Part shown: one piece after another, positions 31,166 to 37,177 of the stretch
Layout of the letters: each line of letters starts with the position of its first letter
Position numbering within the stretch: the first letter of the stretch is position 1
NCBI GenBank assembly: GCA_014218215.1
Contig: CP043652.1
Location: 2,604,001-2,668,000, forward strand
Source of the DNA: Geodermatophilaceae bacterium NBWT11
GTDB lineage: Bacteria > Actinomycetota > Actinomycetes > Mycobacteriales > Geodermatophilaceae
Length of the DNA: 64,000 bases
Direction of reading: 5' to 3'
The notes under the pieces: generated by a model
Told to the model about the DNA's origin: nothing
Databases searched by the model: none
What the model saw: the letters and a program-made list of their open reading frames with translations, nothing else
Position numbers and translations under genes: made by a program

Positions 31166-32485
31166 TCAGCCGCCGACGACCTGCTCGATGGCGTTCAGCG
31201 CGTCGGTGTAGGCCTCGTCGGGGGTCCGGTCACCGTCGGCCACCGTGGTCAGCGCCGCGGAGAACGCGTCCTGGATCTGGGTGTCGTACGGCCCGATCGG
31301 CGTCCGGCGCACGGAGTCCGCGGCATCGCCGAAGACCTGCCCGATGGGCGCGTCGCTGAAGTACTCGCTGACGGTGTCGGCGACCTCGGGGCTCTCCGCG
31401 GCGGTCGAGCTGGAGGGGAAGAACCCACCGTCGGTGAACATCCTCACCTGCTGCTCGGGGGCGGTCAGCCACTCGACCAGGGCGGTGGCCTCCTCGACGT
31501 GCTCACCGCTGCTGGGCACCCCGAGCCACGAGCCGCCCCAGGTGCTGCCGGCCTCGGCCTGCCCGGGCAGGGTGGCGATGTTCCACAGCCCGGCCCCCTC
31601 GTCGCCCATCTGCGAGGTGATGTAGCCCAACATCCAGGACGGGCAGGCGATGGTGGCGAACGCGCCGTTGCTGAAGGCGGCGTTCCAGTCGTCGCCGAAC
31701 TGGGCCAGCGACGCCGTCAGGCCGTCGTCCGCGGCCTGGCTGGCCAGGTCCCACGCGGTCTCGACGCCGTCGCTGTCCTCGACGACGGGGTTGCCGTCCT
31801 CGTCGTCGTAGGCGACGTCGCCCTGCCGGACGGCGGGGGCGAAGACGCTGTTCGGGCTGTCGACGAACGAGCTGCCCTCCTGGCGGGTGGCCGAGTCGGT
31901 GTACTGCTGACCGGTGGCCAGGTAGTCGTCCCAGGTGGGCCACAGCGCGCTGACCGCGGCCGGATCGGTGGGCAGCCCGGCGGCCTCGAAGAGGTCCTGG
32001 CGGTAGCACATGGCCTGCGGGCCGGCATCGGTCCCGAGCCCGATCACCCGGCCGTCGGTGGTGCTGGCCTGGTCCCACTTCCAGTCGTAGAAGGTCCCCT
32101 CGAGCTCGTCGGCGTTGTCCTGCGCGGCGAAGTCGACGAAGGCGTCGGCGTGGTTGGCCGTCACGTCGGCGACGAAGCCGATCTCGATGCCCTGCACGTC
32201 GGCCATCCCCGAACCGGCGGCCAGCCGGGTCTGCAGCGCCTGGTAGTACGCCCCGGACTGGGCCACCACGGACTGCTCGATCCGGATCTCCGGGTGCAGC
32301 TCCATGTACTCCTCGTAGAGCCCGGCCTCCTCGTAGCCGAAGGTGCCGTAGAGGCCCATCGTCAGGGTGATCGGGTCGTCGGCGCTGCCGCCGTCCGCGG
32401 CGCTCCCGCCGCCGCAGCCGGCGGTCAGCAGGGCGAGGGCGACGGCGGCGGACGCAGCCGCGCGTCCGCGTCGGTGATCGAACAT
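31166..32485 (-). CDS. Extracellular sugar-binding lipoprotein, family 1 (CebE-like)
   Basis: A 439-residue SBP family 1 lipoprotein. The signal peptide ends at the lipobox LLTAGC (Cys24), followed by a Gly/Ser linker. The body begins with ITLTMGLYGTFGYEEAGLYEEYMELHPEI, typical of carbohydrate-binding SBPs. It is the first gene of the operon with MalF, MalG, MsiK-type and GH1 genes. A TTGACA -35 box and two CebR-like operators lie upstream, so a beta-glucoside such as cellobiose is the best guess for its ligand. Confidence 0.91.
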   Translation of the reverse strand: MFDHRRGRAAASAAVALALLTAGCGGGSAADGGSADDPITLTMGLYGTFGYEEAGLYEEYMELHPEIRIEQSVVAQSGAYYQALQTRLAAGSGMADVQGIEIGFVADVTANHADAFVDFAAQDNADELEGTFYDWKWDQASTTDGRVIGLGTDAGPQAMCYRQDLFEAAGLPTDPAAVSALWPTWDDYLATGQQYTDSATRQEGSSFVDSPNSVFAPAVRQGDVAYDDEDGNPVVEDSDGVETAWDLASQAADDGLTASLAQFGDDWNAAFSNGAFATIACPSWMLGYITSQMGDEGAGLWNIATLPGQAEAGSTWGGSWLGVPSSGEHVEEATALVEWLTAPEQQVRMFTDGGFFPSSSTAAESPEVADTVSEYFSDAPIGQVFGDAADSVRRTPIGPYDTQIQDAFSAALTTVADGDRTPDEAYTDALNAIEQVVGG

Positions 32486-32540
32486 GGGACCTCCATCGAG
32501 AGCCGCCGGTCCGGGGCGTCAGTGCCCGGTGGCGGAGGCC

Positions 32541-32556
32541 GTGAGAACGCTCTCAC
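32541..32556. promoter_or_regulatory. LacI-type operator O1
   Basis: GTGAGAACGCTCTCAC is a 16-base near palindrome with the central CG usual in LacI operators (two mismatches). The core matches the Streptomyces CebR box TGGGAGCGCTCCCA at 11 of 14 positions. It lies 56 bases before the binding-protein ATG. Confidence 0.65.
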
Positions 32557-32593
32557 GGGCTTGACGGAGAGAGTGGGCGGCGTCACAGGGGGC

Positions 32594-32599
32594 TGTCAA
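32594..32599 (-). promoter_or_regulatory. -35 box of the sugar operon
   Basis: TTGACA on the minus strand is a perfect consensus. A possible -10, CACTCT, lies 18 bases on. The promoter is flanked by operators O1 and O2, an arrangement suited to repression. Confidence 0.45.
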
Positions 32600-32617
32600 G
32601 GACCCGGCACAGAAATG

Positions 32618-32631
32618 TGGGAGCGCTTCCA
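32618..32631. promoter_or_regulatory. CebR-like operator O2
   Basis: TGGGAGCGCTTCCA matches the Streptomyces CebR operator TGGGAGCGCTCCCA at 13 of 14 positions. It lies 43 bases before the GTG of the divergent LacI gene and 76 bases from O1, so it can serve autoregulation and a repression loop. Confidence 0.75.
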
Positions 32632-32674
32632 CGGAGCCCTTCCCAGGACGCCCCTCGTGCCGCACGATGGCCCC

Positions 32675-33703
32675 GTGACCACGACCGGGACGCGCACCGC
32701 GCTGCCGACCCTCGACGAGGTGGCGGTGCTGGCCGGCGTGTCCCGGGCGACCGTCTCCCGGGTGGTCAACGACTCCCCGCGGGTCAGTCCCGAGGCGCGG
32801 GTGGCCGTGCACGCCGCCATCGAGCAGCTGCACTACGTGCCCAACCGGATGGCCCGCAGCCTGGTCACCCGGCGCACCGACACCATCGCGCTGGTGCTGT
32901 CCGAGCCCAACAGCCAGGTCTTCTCCGACCCGTTCTTCGCCAGCATCGTGCACGGGGTGTCCGCCGCCCTGGCCGACACCGAGCTGACCCTGGTGCTGCT
33001 CACCGCCCGGGACGCCCGGGAGCAGCAGAAGATCGGCCGCTACGCCCGGCAGGGCCACGTCGACGGCGTCGTCCTCATGTCCCTGCACAGCGAGGACCTG
33101 CTGCCCGCCGTGCTCACCGACGCCGGGGTGCCGTTGGTGCTGTGCGGTCGGCCCTACGACGGGCGCGAGGTGGCCTTCGTCGACGCCGACAACGCCGGGG
33201 GCGCCGGGGTGGCCACCCGGTTCCTCCTGGAGCAGGGGCGGTCCCGCATCGCCACGCTCACCGGCCCGATGGACATGATCGCCGGGGTCGACCGGCACGC
33301 CGGCTGGGCCCGGGCGCTCACCGCGGCCGGTCGGCCCACCGACCCGGCGCTCGTCGCGCACGGCGACTTCACCGAGGCCGGGGGAGAGGCCGCGATGGCC
33401 CGGCTGCTCGAGCAGAGCCCCGACCTGGACGCGGTGTTCGTGGCCTCGGACCCGATGGCGGTGGGCGCGCTGCGGGCGCTGCGCGCGGCCGGCCGCCGGG
33501 TGCCCGAGGACGTCGCCGTCGTCGGCTTCGACGACGCGGAGGTGGCCCGCACCTGCGACCCCCCGCTGACCACCGTGGCCCAGCCGCTGGACCGGATGAC
33601 CCGCCAGCTCACCGAGCTGCTGCAACGCCAGATCGACGGGGTCGCCGGGCCCGCGGAGTCCCGGGTCTGCGCGACCGAGCTGGTCCGCCGCGCCTCTGCC
33701 TGA
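32675..33703 (+). CDS. cebR: LacI-family repressor, CebR-like
   Basis: A 342-residue regulator. The helix-turn-helix is TLDEVAVLAGVSRATVSRVVN (residues about 10-30) with the hinge helix NRMARSLVTRRTDTIALVL, then a periplasmic-binding-like ligand domain ending in VPEDVAVVGFDD. It diverges from the sugar importer and glucosidase operon, and two LacI-type operators lie between. The symbol rests on the close operator match to Streptomyces CebR and on gene content; the ligand would then be cellobiose or a related oligosaccharide. Confidence 0.88.
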   Translation: MTTTGTRTALPTLDEVAVLAGVSRATVSRVVNDSPRVSPEARVAVHAAIEQLHYVPNRMARSLVTRRTDTIALVLSEPNSQVFSDPFFASIVHGVSAALADTELTLVLLTARDAREQQKIGRYARQGHVDGVVLMSLHSEDLLPAVLTDAGVPLVLCGRPYDGREVAFVDADNAGGAGVATRFLLEQGRSRIATLTGPMDMIAGVDRHAGWARALTAAGRPTDPALVAHGDFTEAGGEAAMARLLEQSPDLDAVFVASDPMAVGALRALRAAGRRVPEDVAVVGFDDAEVARTCDPPLTTVAQPLDRMTRQLTELLQRQIDGVAGPAESRVCATELVRRASA

Positions 33704-33744
33704 GCGGCTGTGCGCGCCGACACGCGCCGTTCACGAGCCCTGGA

Positions 33745-33750
33745 TAGGTT
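33745..33750 (+). promoter_or_regulatory. -10 box of the ATP-grasp operon, leaderless type
   Basis: TAGGTT is followed by six bases and the ATG at 33757, with no ribosome site between. It gives the three-gene operon its own promoter, separate from the LacI gene 53 bases upstream. Confidence 0.5.
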
Positions 33751-33756
33751 CCCCGC

Positions 33757-35340
33757 ATGGCGGACCTCTTCGACGGCTACCCCCTCGGGGAGCAGTGGGA
33801 CGAGATGTTCGGCGCACCGGCCCAACCGCGGCCGCCGTACGCCGGGCTCTTCAGCTCGCTCCAACCGATGTCCGGGGAGGAGCTCGCGGCCCGCGCGGAC
33901 GTGCTGAGCCAGACCTACCGCGACGCCGGGGTCACCTTCGCGCACGCGGGGGAGGAGCAGCCCTTCCCGCTGGACATCGTGCCGCGGGTGATCGGCAGCG
34001 ACGAGTGGGCGCACGTCGAGCGCGGGGTCGCCCAGCGGGTGCACGCCCTCGAGGCGTTCCTGGCCGACGTCTACGGCGCCGGTCAGGTGTTCGCCGACCG
34101 CATCGTCCCGCGCAGCGTGATCACCACCAGCGCGCACTTCCACCGCGCCGCGCACGGCCTGGTGCCGCCCAACGGCGTGCGGGTGCACGTCTCGGGCATC
34201 GACCTGGTCCGCGACGAGGCCGGGGACTTCCGGGTGCTCGAGGACAACCTGCGCAGCCCGTCGGGCGTCAGCTACGTGATCACCAACCGGGCGGCGATGA
34301 GCCAGGTGCTGCCCGAGCTGTTCGGGGACCACCGCATCCAGCCTGTCGCGGACTACCCGTCCAAGCTGCTCGCCGCGCTGAAGGCCTCGGCGCCGACCGG
34401 GGTGAGCGACCCGACCGTCGTCGTCCTCACCCCCGGTGTCTACAACTCGGCCTACTTCGAGCACGCCCTGCTGGCCCGCCAGATGGGCGTCGAGCTGGTC
34501 GAGGGCCGCGACCTGGTCTGCTCCGGCGGCCAGGTCAGCATGCGGACGACGGACGGCCAGCAGCGCGTGGACGTGGTCTACCGACGCATCGACGACGAGT
34601 TCCTCGACCCGGTGCACTTCCGCTCGGACTCGGTGATCGGCTGCGCCGGCGTGCTCAACGCCGCCCGCGCCGGCCGGGTGACCATCGCCAACGCGGTGGG
34701 CAACGGCGTCGCCGACGACAAGCTCATCTACACGTGGGTGCCCGACCTCATCCGCTACTACCTGGGCGAGGAGCCGGTGCTCGCCAACGCCGACACCTAC
34801 CGCCTGGACGACGCCGACGCCACCGAGTGGGTGCTGTCCAGCCTGGACCAGCTCGTGCTCAAGCCGGTCGACGGCTCCGGCGGCAAGGGCATCGTGATCG
34901 GCCCGCGTGCCGACGAGAAGACCCTGGCCGAGCTCGCGGTGAAGGTGCGCGCCTCCCCCCGGGACTGGATCGCGCAGAAGCCGATCGGGCTCTCGACGTC
35001 CCCGACGCTGATCAACGGCAAGATCGCCCCGCGGCACGTCGACCTGCGGCCCTTCGCGGTCAACGACGGCACCGACGTGTGGGTGCTGCCCGGCGGGCTG
35101 ACCCGGGTCGCGCTGCCCGAGGGCGAGCTGGTGGTCAACTCCAGCCAGGGCGGCGGGTCCAAGGACACCTGGGTCATCTCCGGTTCCCGCCCGCAGGCCG
35201 AGCCCACCCCCGACCGCACCCAGATCGAGTTCACCACCGCCGACCTGCCCGCCGAGCCCCCCGCCCAGGACCCCGGCCCGGCCAACGACAACGCCGTCGC
35301 CCAGGGCCAACAGCAGCAGCAAGGGGTGTCGCAGTGCTGA
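33757..35340 (+). CDS. Circularly permuted ATP-grasp protein
   Basis: A 527-residue protein of the circularly permuted type 2 ATP-grasp family (DUF404/DUF407, COG2308). Recognisable parts are VSGIDLVRDEAGDFRVLEDNLR, GVYNSAYFEHALLARQMGVELVEG, YRRIDDEFLDP and the nucleotide-binding loop KPVDGSGGKGIVIG. Such proteins are predicted amide- or peptide-bond ligases. The last 45 residues are a Pro/Asn/Gln-rich tail with five consecutive glutamines. The operon continues with alpha-E and transglutaminase genes, the usual partners. Confidence 0.9.
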   Translation: MADLFDGYPLGEQWDEMFGAPAQPRPPYAGLFSSLQPMSGEELAARADVLSQTYRDAGVTFAHAGEEQPFPLDIVPRVIGSDEWAHVERGVAQRVHALEAFLADVYGAGQVFADRIVPRSVITTSAHFHRAAHGLVPPNGVRVHVSGIDLVRDEAGDFRVLEDNLRSPSGVSYVITNRAAMSQVLPELFGDHRIQPVADYPSKLLAALKASAPTGVSDPTVVVLTPGVYNSAYFEHALLARQMGVELVEGRDLVCSGGQVSMRTTDGQQRVDVVYRRIDDEFLDPVHFRSDSVIGCAGVLNAARAGRVTIANAVGNGVADDKLIYTWVPDLIRYYLGEEPVLANADTYRLDDADATEWVLSSLDQLVLKPVDGSGGKGIVIGPRADEKTLAELAVKVRASPRDWIAQKPIGLSTSPTLINGKIAPRHVDLRPFAVNDGTDVWVLPGGLTRVALPEGELVVNSSQGGGSKDTWVISGSRPQAEPTPDRTQIEFTTADLPAEPPAQDPGPANDNAVAQGQQQQQGVSQC

Positions 35341-36284
35341 GCCGCATCGCCGAGTCGCTGTTCTGGATCGGGCGCTACGTAGAGCGGGCCGACGACACCG
35401 CCCGGATCCTCGACGTGCACACCCAGCGGCTGGTCGAGGACCCGTGGATCGACGAGCAGCGGGCCTGCCACAACCTGCTCGCGCTGATGGGCGTGCCCTG
35501 CCCGCTGGAGGAGGCCGACACCGAGCGGGTGCTCGGCACGCTGGCCTTCGACCGGGTGGCCCCGAGCTCGATCGTCGGTGCGCTGAGCGCGGCCCGGGAG
35601 AACGCCCGCGGCGCCCGCGAGGTGCTGTCGGCGGAGATCTGGGAGTCCCTCAACGTCACCCACAACGCGCTGCCCCAGCAGCGCACGATGGCCCGCCGCT
35701 ACGGCCCGCACTCCCTCTTCCGGTTCGTCCGGGAGCGCTCGGCCATGGTGTTCGGGCTGGCCGACGCCACGATGAGCCGGGACGAGAGCTGGCTGTTCCT
35801 CATCCTGGGCCGCTCGCTCGAGCGGGTGGACATGACCAGCCGGATGCTCTCCACCCGGGTGCTGGCCGGTGACGCGGCGCCGTCCTGGACGTTGGTGCTG
35901 CGCTCGACCGGGGCCTACGAGCCCTACCTGCGCACCTACCGGGGTGCGGTCAACTCCAGCCGGGCCGCGGAGTTCCTGCTGCTGGACCGGCTCTTCCCCC
36001 GCTCGGTGTTCGCCGCGCTGGAGCAGGCCGAGGGCTGCCTGGCCGAGCTCGAGCGCTCCAACGTCCGCGACGGGCACCGGATCGGCGTCGCGGGGGAGGC
36101 CCACCGGATCGTCGGACGGGCCCGGACGATGCTGGAGTTCATGGGCACCGACGAGATCCTCGCCAAGCTGCCCACCCGGCTCGACGAGCTGCAGCGCACC
36201 TGCTCGGCGGCCAGCGAGGCCGTGACCAGCAGGTTCTTCACCGAGCAGGCGCCCCAGGTGTGGGTGCCGGAAGGCGTGGGATGA
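35334..36284 (+). CDS. Alpha-E domain protein (COG2307)
   Basis: A 316-residue, mostly helical protein starting LSRIAESLFWIGRYVERADDTARILDVH, the hallmark of the alpha-E family. It has no known catalytic residues and always accompanies the permuted ATP-grasp protein, sometimes fused to it. The GTG start lies 7 bases inside the ATP-grasp gene, and the stop overlaps the next ATG as ATGA. It probably forms a complex with the ligase. Confidence 0.9.
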   Translation: MLSRIAESLFWIGRYVERADDTARILDVHTQRLVEDPWIDEQRACHNLLALMGVPCPLEEADTERVLGTLAFDRVAPSSIVGALSAARENARGAREVLSAEIWESLNVTHNALPQQRTMARRYGPHSLFRFVRERSAMVFGLADATMSRDESWLFLILGRSLERVDMTSRMLSTRVLAGDAAPSWTLVLRSTGAYEPYLRTYRGAVNSSRAAEFLLLDRLFPRSVFAALEQAEGCLAELERSNVRDGHRIGVAGEAHRIVGRARTMLEFMGTDEILAKLPTRLDELQRTCSAASEAVTSRFFTEQAPQVWVPEGVG

Positions 36285-37177
36285 GCCCGATGAGCGCGCA
36301 GTCCCAGACGCAGTCCCAGTCCCGCCCGGCGCCGGACCGGTGGCGGTTGCAGGTCGTGCACCGCACCCGCTTCGAGTACGCCGGGCCCGTGCGGTCCTCC
36401 TACAACGAGGCCCGGATGACCCCGGAGAACACCACCCGGCAGACCACGCTGCGCTCCCGGGTCGAGGTGGAACCGGCGGCCTCGATCCACGCCTACCGGG
36501 ACTACTGGGGCTCCACGGTCACCGCGTTCGACCTGCACGGCCCGCACCGCGAGCTGGCCGTCGTCGCCACCTCGGTGGTCGAGGCCGGGCCCGAGCCCGA
36601 CCAGGCGCCGGTGGTGTCCTGGGAGGGGCTGGCCGACGCCGACGTCGTCGACCGGTTCGGGGAGATGCTGCGGCCCACCCCGCTGACCGCGATGGACGCC
36701 CCCGTCGTCCGTGCCGTCCGCGACGTCGTCGGCGACGCCGACCCGCGCGAGGCCGGCCACCGGGTGTGCCGGTTCGTGCACGACCACATGCAGTACCTGT
36801 CCGGCTCGACGAACGTGAAGACCAACGCCATGCAGGCGTGGACGTCGGGCAAGGGCGTCTGCCAGGACATGGCGCACGTGTCGGTCGGGCTGCTGCGCTC
36901 ACTCGGCATCCCGGCCCGCTACGTGTCGGGCTACCTGCACCCCAAGCCCGGTGCGGCGATCGGCGAGCCGGTCAAGGGCGAGAGCCACGCCTGGGTCGAG
37001 TGGTGGGACGGCAGCTGGACCGGCTACGACCCCACCAACGTCGTGGAGATCGGCACCCGGCACGTGACCCTGGGTCGCGGCCGGGACTACCGCGACGTGC
37101 CCCCGCTGAAGGGGATCTTCTCCGGTCCGCGCAGCCAGGGGCACTCGGTCGTCGTGGAGGTCACCCGGCTCGCCTGA
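36281..37177 (+). CDS. Transglutaminase-like cysteine peptidase/amidase
   Basis: A 298-residue protein. A bacterial transglutaminase N-terminal domain (about 20-110: LQVVHRTRFEYAGPVRSSYNEARM) is followed by a core with the triad C194 (GKGVCQDMAHV), H236 (GESHAWVEW) and D250 (GYDPTN). It is likely to hydrolyse or transfer an amide bond, perhaps one made by the ATP-grasp partner. No signal peptide is visible, so it acts in the cytoplasm. ATGA overlap couples it to the alpha-E gene. Confidence 0.92.
   Translation: MSPMSAQSQTQSQSRPAPDRWRLQVVHRTRFEYAGPVRSSYNEARMTPENTTRQTTLRSRVEVEPAASIHAYRDYWGSTVTAFDLHGPHRELAVVATSVVEAGPEPDQAPVVSWEGLADADVVDRFGEMLRPTPLTAMDAPVVRAVRDVVGDADPREAGHRVCRFVHDHMQYLSGSTNVKTNAMQAWTSGKGVCQDMAHVSVGLLRSLGIPARYVSGYLHPKPGAAIGEPVKGESHAWVEWWDGSWTGYDPTNVVEIGTRHVTLGRGRDYRDVPPLKGIFSGPRSQGHSVVVEVTRLA

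Follow-up and report, generated by a model that had tools for sequence, protein, structure and literature searches.

Three overlapping genes occupy positions 33757-37177, on the forward strand, of a 64,000-nucleotide stretch of DNA from Geodermatophilaceae bacterium NBWT11 (contig CP043652.1, positions 2,604,001 to 2,668,000). This stretch, hereafter referred to as the window, sits in one contig of 4,594,226 bases. The genes encode a circularly permuted ATP-grasp ligase, an Alpha-E protein and a transglutaminase-like enzyme. An earlier note on this DNA had named these three families in this order, and the Pfam profiles agree with it. The operon is the actinomycete form, lacking the Anbu-type peptidase, of the circularly permuted (CP) ATP-grasp / Alpha-E / transglutaminase module, which is known but unexplained. 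The Gln-rich tail of its ATP-grasp protein, an oddity in the earlier note, is the most informative part of the operon. Judged from sequence comparison, tail-bearing operons have in effect a single Gln-rich C-terminal tail among their three proteins, and the carrier has changed repeatedly.

The first gene (33757-35340) starts at an ATG and encodes 527 amino acid residues. Its product matches PF14403 (E 1.1e-156) and PF04174 (E 1.6e-149), and we presume that it is COG2308-like. The closest named relative found, from Blastococcus sp. DSM 44205, is 86% identical, and on this ground the source is most likely a Blastococcus or a close relative of that genus. The second gene (35334-36284) starts at a GTG and encodes an Alpha-E protein of 316 residues (PF04168, E 3.2e-82, 277 bits); it is the single Alpha-E gene in the whole genome. 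The third gene (36281-37177) encodes 298 residues if the ATG at 36281 is used, the start in the list of open reading frames (ORFs) being the GTG at 36260, and its product matches PF08379 (E 1.5e-23) and PF01841 (E 4.4e-22). No NCBIfam profile matched the three proteins at 1e-3. The first two genes overlap in GTGCTGA, where the Alpha-E GTG lies across the ATP-grasp stop, and the last two in ATGA; because of these overlaps the three genes are very likely co-transcribed. All 39 loci with matches, namely the window and 38 others, have the genes in this order; this count left out L071 and L072, which are not operon loci. The transglutaminase-like enzyme has the papain-like Cys-His-Asp triad that a true transglutaminase requires, intact as the earlier note had read it, at Cys194, His236 and Asp250 (codons at 36860, 36986 and 37028). 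In an alignment of the window protein with those of 75 of 80 loci, Cys is kept in 73 of 76 sequences, His in 75 and Asp in all 76. The operon has the constituents by which the module is recognized: a permuted ATP-grasp domain, an adjoining Alpha-E protein and a triad-bearing transglutaminase-like protein.

An AlphaFold model of the ATP-grasp protein, made with a 45-row alignment, has a mean predicted local distance difference test score (pLDDT) of 81.8. In a Foldseek search its nearest structure was 3n6x (E 2.9e-53, TMt 0.91), followed by eukaryotic glutathione synthetases and E. coli glutathionylspermidine synthetase. Enzymes of the glutathione-synthetase fold join amines to peptide carboxylates, and both glutathione synthetase and glutathionylspermidine synthetase are ATP-dependent amide ligases. 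The fold is shared with these two enzymes and with the fungal E-64 ligase Cp1B (9cjn; PMC12568646), at Foldseek E values of about 1e-15 to 1e-10. Identities are 10-15%, and the substrates of these enzymes are not transferable to the window protein. By sequence the only solved relative is 3n6x (phmmer E 2.9e-147), which is Mfla_0391 of Methylobacillus flagellatus, named 'putative glutathionylspermidine synthase'; no functional study of it was seen. The Alpha-E model is all-helical, with a pLDDT of 93.3. It resembled no PDB chain at a Foldseek E of 0.001 or below, which does not prove a new fold, and a profile search of PDB gave just four matches, at E 0.1-0.28, which we take as chance.

The C-terminal segment of the ATP-grasp protein, residues 477-527 (35185-35337), has a pLDDT below 50 and is disordered in the model. 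In 3n6x this tail is absent: its 474-residue chain is matched as far as KDTWIL, at 472. The window protein ends QQQQQGVSQC, and its five Gln residues (518-522; 35308-35322) are encoded by CAA CAG CAG CAG CAA. This run is the one site in the whole genome that matches the pattern (CAR)5. In four congeners (G001, G004, G005 and G007) the pattern likewise matches at this operon only, and further sites exist in other congeners and relatives. Each of the 32 type-A loci of relatives (the type-B operons are described below) has a Gln run, 4 to 11 residues long, after the enzyme domain, with 0-49 residues between the run and the C-terminus. The tail reported by the earlier note is real, and the terminal Cys of that report is not a feature of its own, since the TGC-TGA overlap with the Alpha-E start forces it; 19 of 20 family loci end alike. 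A by-product of the Alpha-E ribosome-binding site was considered and rejected as the origin of the tail: a Shine-Dalgarno-like AAGGGG and the GTGCTGA overlap account for GVSQC and not for the run, which in relatives lies at the variable distance from the end given above. Gln codons are mixed. CAA makes up 146 of 541 codons in 88 runs, versus 80 of 1207 in the enzyme bodies, counts that are not independent samples, and this mixture argues for selection on the protein rather than slippage of pure CAG repeats.

A survey across bacteria started from 223 loci, of which 210 were kept after dropping those with a fused or missing ATP-grasp or a cut Alpha-E gene; these were reduced to 137 non-redundant operons at 85% Alpha-E identity. 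The sample contains no cyanobacteria and no archaea. Its Pseudomonadota and Bacteroidota-group loci (40 of 112 and 45 of 52 positive genomes) are not random, being the best-scoring Alpha-E matches plus a few picked by hand. When 5 Gln in 12 residues are required, a tail is present in 89 of the 137 operons, in effect on the C-terminus of one subunit each. The carrier is the ATP-grasp protein in 56, the transglutaminase in 20 and Alpha-E in 12; one operon (L284) was flagged for two proteins, the Gln residues of its Alpha-E not being a terminal tail. No tail was found in 35, and 13 in which the transglutaminase was not seen were left undecided.

Actinomycetes carry the tail on the ATP-grasp protein. 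In 64 of 65 loci from named actinomycete genomes, a 12-residue stretch of this tail contains 4 or more Gln, the miss being L129. At the stricter cut it is found in 54 of 58 non-redundant actinomycete operons, and three of the four misses (L080, L091 and L119) bear shorter Gln ends. Three deep actinobacterial representatives were scored as having no tail; the transglutaminase of one of them, L149, nonetheless ends in QQQ. Outside the actinomycetes the ATP-grasp tail occurs in 2 of 79 representatives, both of them plasmid sets (Sphingomonas and Deinococcus), and a transglutaminase or Alpha-E tail in 33 of 79. In Acidobacteria, Bacteroidota, Chloroflexi and a Nitriliruptoraceae metagenome-assembled genome (MAG), the ATP-grasp protein lacks a Gln run and extends no more than about 15 residues beyond the conserved QGGG-KDT motif; here it is the transglutaminase that often has Gln at or near its end, as in EMQQQQQQ, AIQQQQQQ and QQPAQQQQ. 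A group of mostly small genomes in the phylum of Pedobacter, which we infer to be probably Chlorobia, has the run on Alpha-E (...ANWSQSQQQQQQ) in 26 of 30 loci, nine representatives once reduced. Some Pseudomonadota have SQ/TQ repeats on Alpha-E or the transglutaminase.

The background consists of the last 45 residues of the products of 887 flanking genes, each 200 residues or longer (crude gene calls). Four of these have at least 5 Gln in 12 residues, none has 6 or more and none ends in QQ. Gln is the last residue of 31 of 64 non-actinomycete transglutaminases, versus 21 of the 887 flanking gene products. On a quickly built Alpha-E tree, tail-bearing operons show a minimum of 7 changes of carrier when L284 is coded as a transglutaminase carrier, and of 8 when it is coded as an Alpha-E carrier; gains and losses are not separated in this count. 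With these controls behind it, the wandering Gln tail looks new as far as the literature was searched. No paper on Gln tails in the module was among those listed in this search, which covered subscription papers and preprints poorly and Iyer et al. 2009 through citations only.

The earlier note had stated that the Anbu-type peptidase is missing from the window and suggested a search of the genome. Anbu was looked for by tblastn with eight Anbu-like ORFs picked by their N-terminus, with no curated Anbu model behind these calls, and none was found in the window. The genome-wide search gave two PF00227 matches only, as a pair, in a locus resembling that of a Pup-proteasome at about 4354-4359 kb of the contig (L072), 1.7 Mb from the operon. 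A Pup-like ORF ending in KGGE and a PafA-like ORF, both recognized by eye, adjoin the two genes, which are for this reason most likely the 20S subunits of a Pup-proteasome. With the proteasome-fold genes confined to this pair, Anbu is most likely absent from the whole genome and not just from the window, and the operon is not an Anbu operon in the strict sense. Nor was Anbu found in the actinomycete loci examined, within flanks of up to 5 kb. In Pup tagging, a disordered tail ending in Gln or Glu is deamidated and ligated. The likeness to the operon is an analogy only: the genome has a Pup-like locus, but no Pup, PafA or Dop homologue lies within the operon, whose proteins match only PF14403, PF04174, PF04168, PF08379 and PF01841.

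The earlier note also regarded the operon as the best candidate for an undescribed biochemical system. In that form this is not supported, as the core of the Anbu operon has been a named, predicted system since Iyer et al. 2009, according to the papers that cite it (PMC6376114, PMC5666114), where the module is predicted to make or modify peptides (see also PMC3597751). The note was right that no product is established; the literature searched names none and gave no report of a substrate. The Anbu operons described for Pseudomonadota, cyanobacteria and others (PMC5666114, PMC6376114) have the same three families in the same order. The window operon differs from them in having no Anbu in its genome and a Gln tail on the ATP-grasp protein, which is 46-51% identical to the listed Pseudomonadota plasmid copies. 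In Yersinia bercovieri, the operon's ATP-grasp protein liberates phosphate from ATP, and no stable complex with Anbu was found (PMC6376114). Amide or peptide ligation by the module, like the making and cutting of a tag named in the earlier note, is a prediction, and the homologue data cover phosphate release alone.

We take COG3484 to be Anbu. This proteasome-type protease appears in a predicted sigma-54 cluster (PMC12316311). In another phylum, a four-gene set of B. cenocepacia depends on NtrC, with changes listed at -8.2, -9.4, -9.4 and -6.0 in an ntrC mutant; it consists of ATP-grasp, Alpha-E and two transglutaminase-like genes, the fourth gene being the large second transglutaminase-like one and not Anbu (PMC5491218). 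Anbu is reported to be up in nitrogen-limited P. putida, also of another phylum (cited in PMC5666114), and in marine metagenomes the domains of the module correlate with urea-metabolism domains (PMC3597751). A table in a Bradyrhizobium RpoN study lists a CP_ATPgrasp_1 gene with a promoter-site-like sequence (PMC13207237).

Upstream of the ATP-grasp ATG, TAGGTT (33745-33750, forward strand) ends 6 nt before the start codon and constitutes a putative -10 box. A TANNNT box ending 6-8 nt upstream of the ATG (position -12 to -14) is present in 20 of 20 family loci, the window included; in the window, TANNNT stands at -12 or -13 of just 5 of 733 ATGs on both strands. A block with the consensus GAaACGCGc-N4-CAC (33719-33734, forward strand), likely a regulator site to judge by its conservation, is kept in 19 of 20 family promoters at a fixed spacing to the -10 box. 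The box near the ATG throughout the family, the shared block and the rarity of the box at window ATGs indicate that the promoter is conserved and probably leaderless, and at this level the earlier note's own leaderless promoter is upheld. The 16-bp upstream block resembles two half-sites 11 bp apart. Control of the GlnR type was considered: the block is like half-sites of the GlnR consensus, and a loose pattern matched 27 genome sites versus 16 for the reversed control.

The neighbours, named from their translations, are a LacI-type regulator upstream and an ABC-F protein downstream. Just upstream, at 31166-33703, lies a divergent pair of genes for a sugar-binding protein of the ATP-binding cassette (ABC) type and the LacI-type regulator. 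Flanking genes recur only within the genus or family (crude gene calls), and a fourth partner gene was rejected on this ground. The cluster of the LacI-type regulator is not shared beyond the genus or its near relatives and probably has nothing to do with the operon.

Related families also have type-B operons, diverged paralogues seen at L043, L045, L047, L052, L058, L060 and L062, in which the ATP-grasp protein is fused to Alpha-E in a polypeptide of about 850 residues. A gene of about 1100 residues lies upstream in six of the seven; a second transglutaminase lies downstream. These operons have the same three families as the window operon; they differ in the fused genes and the lack of a Gln tail, and their ATP-grasp part is 31-35% identical to that of the window. 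The genome of the window, with its one Alpha-E gene, has no type-B operon. The Rv2566-Rv2569c region of M. tuberculosis is presumably another example.

What the tail does can be approached from its composition. Its residue is Gln and the operon encodes an enzyme with a Cys-His-Asp triad, and for this reason the tail may be a built-in glutamine substrate of the operon's own transglutaminase-like enzyme, a reading that we hold tentatively, as quite possible and short of probable. In animals, Gln repeats are reported to be transglutaminase substrates (PMC5593521). Also in favour of this reading are the retention of the tail, its rarity in flanking genes, its changes of carrier, the Gln-final transglutaminases outside the actinomycetes, the mixed codons and the nitrogen-related observations given above, all of the latter from other phyla or metagenomes. 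The catalytic Cys would attack the side chain of a tail Gln, with release of ammonia and formation of a thioester, which would be handed on either to water or to an amine, be it a small one or the Lys of a partner. The ATP-grasp enzyme would spend ATP to form an amide bond on that same substrate or acceptor, and Alpha-E would hold or position it. The simplest account of a tail borne by any of the three proteins is that they work as one complex, for which it would be immaterial which of them carries the tail. The outcome would be a self-modifying ligase, perhaps with a state that follows nitrogen supply. In the wider form of this proposal, which we consider more doubtful, a tail that any of the three subunits can carry would serve as glutamine donor for both the transglutaminase and the ligase of the complex.

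Several points weigh against the tail as a glutamine substrate. Many bacterial PF01841 proteins are hydrolases, and acyl transfer is therefore not assured. All seven type-B operons have a transglutaminase and no Gln tail. Among the Anbu-bearing representatives in which the transglutaminase was seen, 17 of 21 have no long tail and 4 have one. Anbu-less operons (transglutaminase seen or tail found) have a tail in 85 of 103 cases and lack it in 18; the 3.9-kb loci among the sample (L204-L233) can miss Anbu. L155, L164 and L269 carry Gln repeats on Alpha-E, and no same-strand transglutaminase was seen downstream of them. In L138 (Acidimicrobiaceae) and L139 (a MAG titled Acidobacteria, 66% identical) the ATP-grasp tail has no Gln run. 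The N-terminus of the transglutaminase is Gln-rich as well, with SQ/TQ/QQ repeats in seven of eight matched family loci (the window, L067, L040, L054, L036, L056 and L055; not L037), and in the window's family 'one tail' is valid for C-termini only. Finally, the Yersinia ATP-grasp enzyme was not stimulated by free Gln or Glu (PMC6376114). In the window the N-terminal segment of the transglutaminase is SAQSQTQSQ (residues 5-13; 36293-36319, forward strand), and family operons may carry two Gln-rich ends, one at the ATP-grasp C-terminus and one at the transglutaminase N-terminus.

That the tail replaces Anbu was considered and rejected. The raw counts given above are associated at a Fisher p of 4e-8, but the tree gives no significant association (median p 0.375). 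Seven Anbu operons keep Gln-rich transglutaminase ends (L239, L246, L256, L260, L261, L264 and L265), and a tail is also present in L142, which was scored as Anbu-less because of the position of its Anbu-like gene, upstream of the set. Anbu-operon transglutaminases often have one or two Gln as their last residues (VEQ, VQQ, AQQ or GEQ) and have no long tail, as at L251, L252, L255, L257, L259, L237, L240, L253, L270 and L271; in Pseudomonadota, 11 of 17 from Anbu-bearing operons end in Gln.

The same tail could instead be a docking arm, a short coiled-coil or a groove-binding motif that joins the three subunits and is chemically unchanged. We regard this as possible and rather uncertain; it is nearly as good as the substrate reading, mainly because the fused paralogues, in which ATP-grasp and Alpha-E form one polypeptide, have no tail in seven of seven operons. 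One C-terminal tail per operon, on any subunit, suits an arm that binds a shared partner, and the disorder of the tail in the model and its absence from most Anbu-bearing operons fit as well. The tails, however, range from pure Q runs to SQ/TQ repeats, with variable length and distance from the end, and are too varied for a usual docking motif, while one fixed groove would have to serve whichever subunit bears the tail. Co-expressed Yersinia operon proteins gave no specific interaction in an experiment that had Anbu as sole bait and a C-terminally tagged transglutaminase (PMC6376114).

A tail outside the chemistry altogether would agree with the published prediction, as cited in PMC6376114 and PMC5666114, of a soluble pathway in which the ligase makes, and the transglutaminase or Anbu cuts, a peptide tag or small peptide. 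The fold of the ATP-grasp protein is indeed that of small-molecule ligases, but such a pathway leaves the retention of the tail and its movement among three subunits unexplained, and we consider it unlikely. No better placed is an ATP-grasp enzyme that extends or caps, in cis and in the manner of Pup or RimK ligation, the carboxylate of the tail, either at the C-terminus or at a Gln deamidated by the transglutaminase. The glutathione-synthetase fold would permit this, and the 31 of 64 non-actinomycete transglutaminases noted above end exactly in Gln. In 29 of 32 type-A loci, however, up to 49 residues follow the run, so that the Gln is not terminal unless the end is trimmed, and the lack of stimulation of the Yersinia enzyme by free Gln or Glu counts against it too (PMC6376114). 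Finally, that the tails are neutral low-complexity ends, found because three proteins were inspected, is very improbable: their length varies, CAG repeats arise easily and a looser cut flags non-tail Gln in Alpha-E (L124, L128 and L284), but the comparison of 4 in 887 flanking genes with 54 in 58 actinomycete operons, the single (CAR)5 site of the genome and the confinement of (CAR)5 in four congeners to this operon, and the mixed CAA/CAG codons all stand against it.

The module is widespread, as Alpha-E is present in 37 of the 60 relatives searched, in 112 of 200 genomes of the phylum of a Caulobacteraceae genome and in 52 of 148 of the phylum of Pedobacter. A low-complexity tail that moves among the subunits of one operon is in itself an unusual evolutionary pattern, and a Gln tail on a single subunit is a concrete and testable candidate substrate. 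C-terminal tags, such as that on the Yersinia transglutaminase (PMC6376114), may mask the relevant residues. If the tail is a glutamine substrate, its being somewhere in the complex would be all that counts, which would account for its moving at least 7 times, and the tail would reveal the substrate of a module that occurs in many bacterial phyla.

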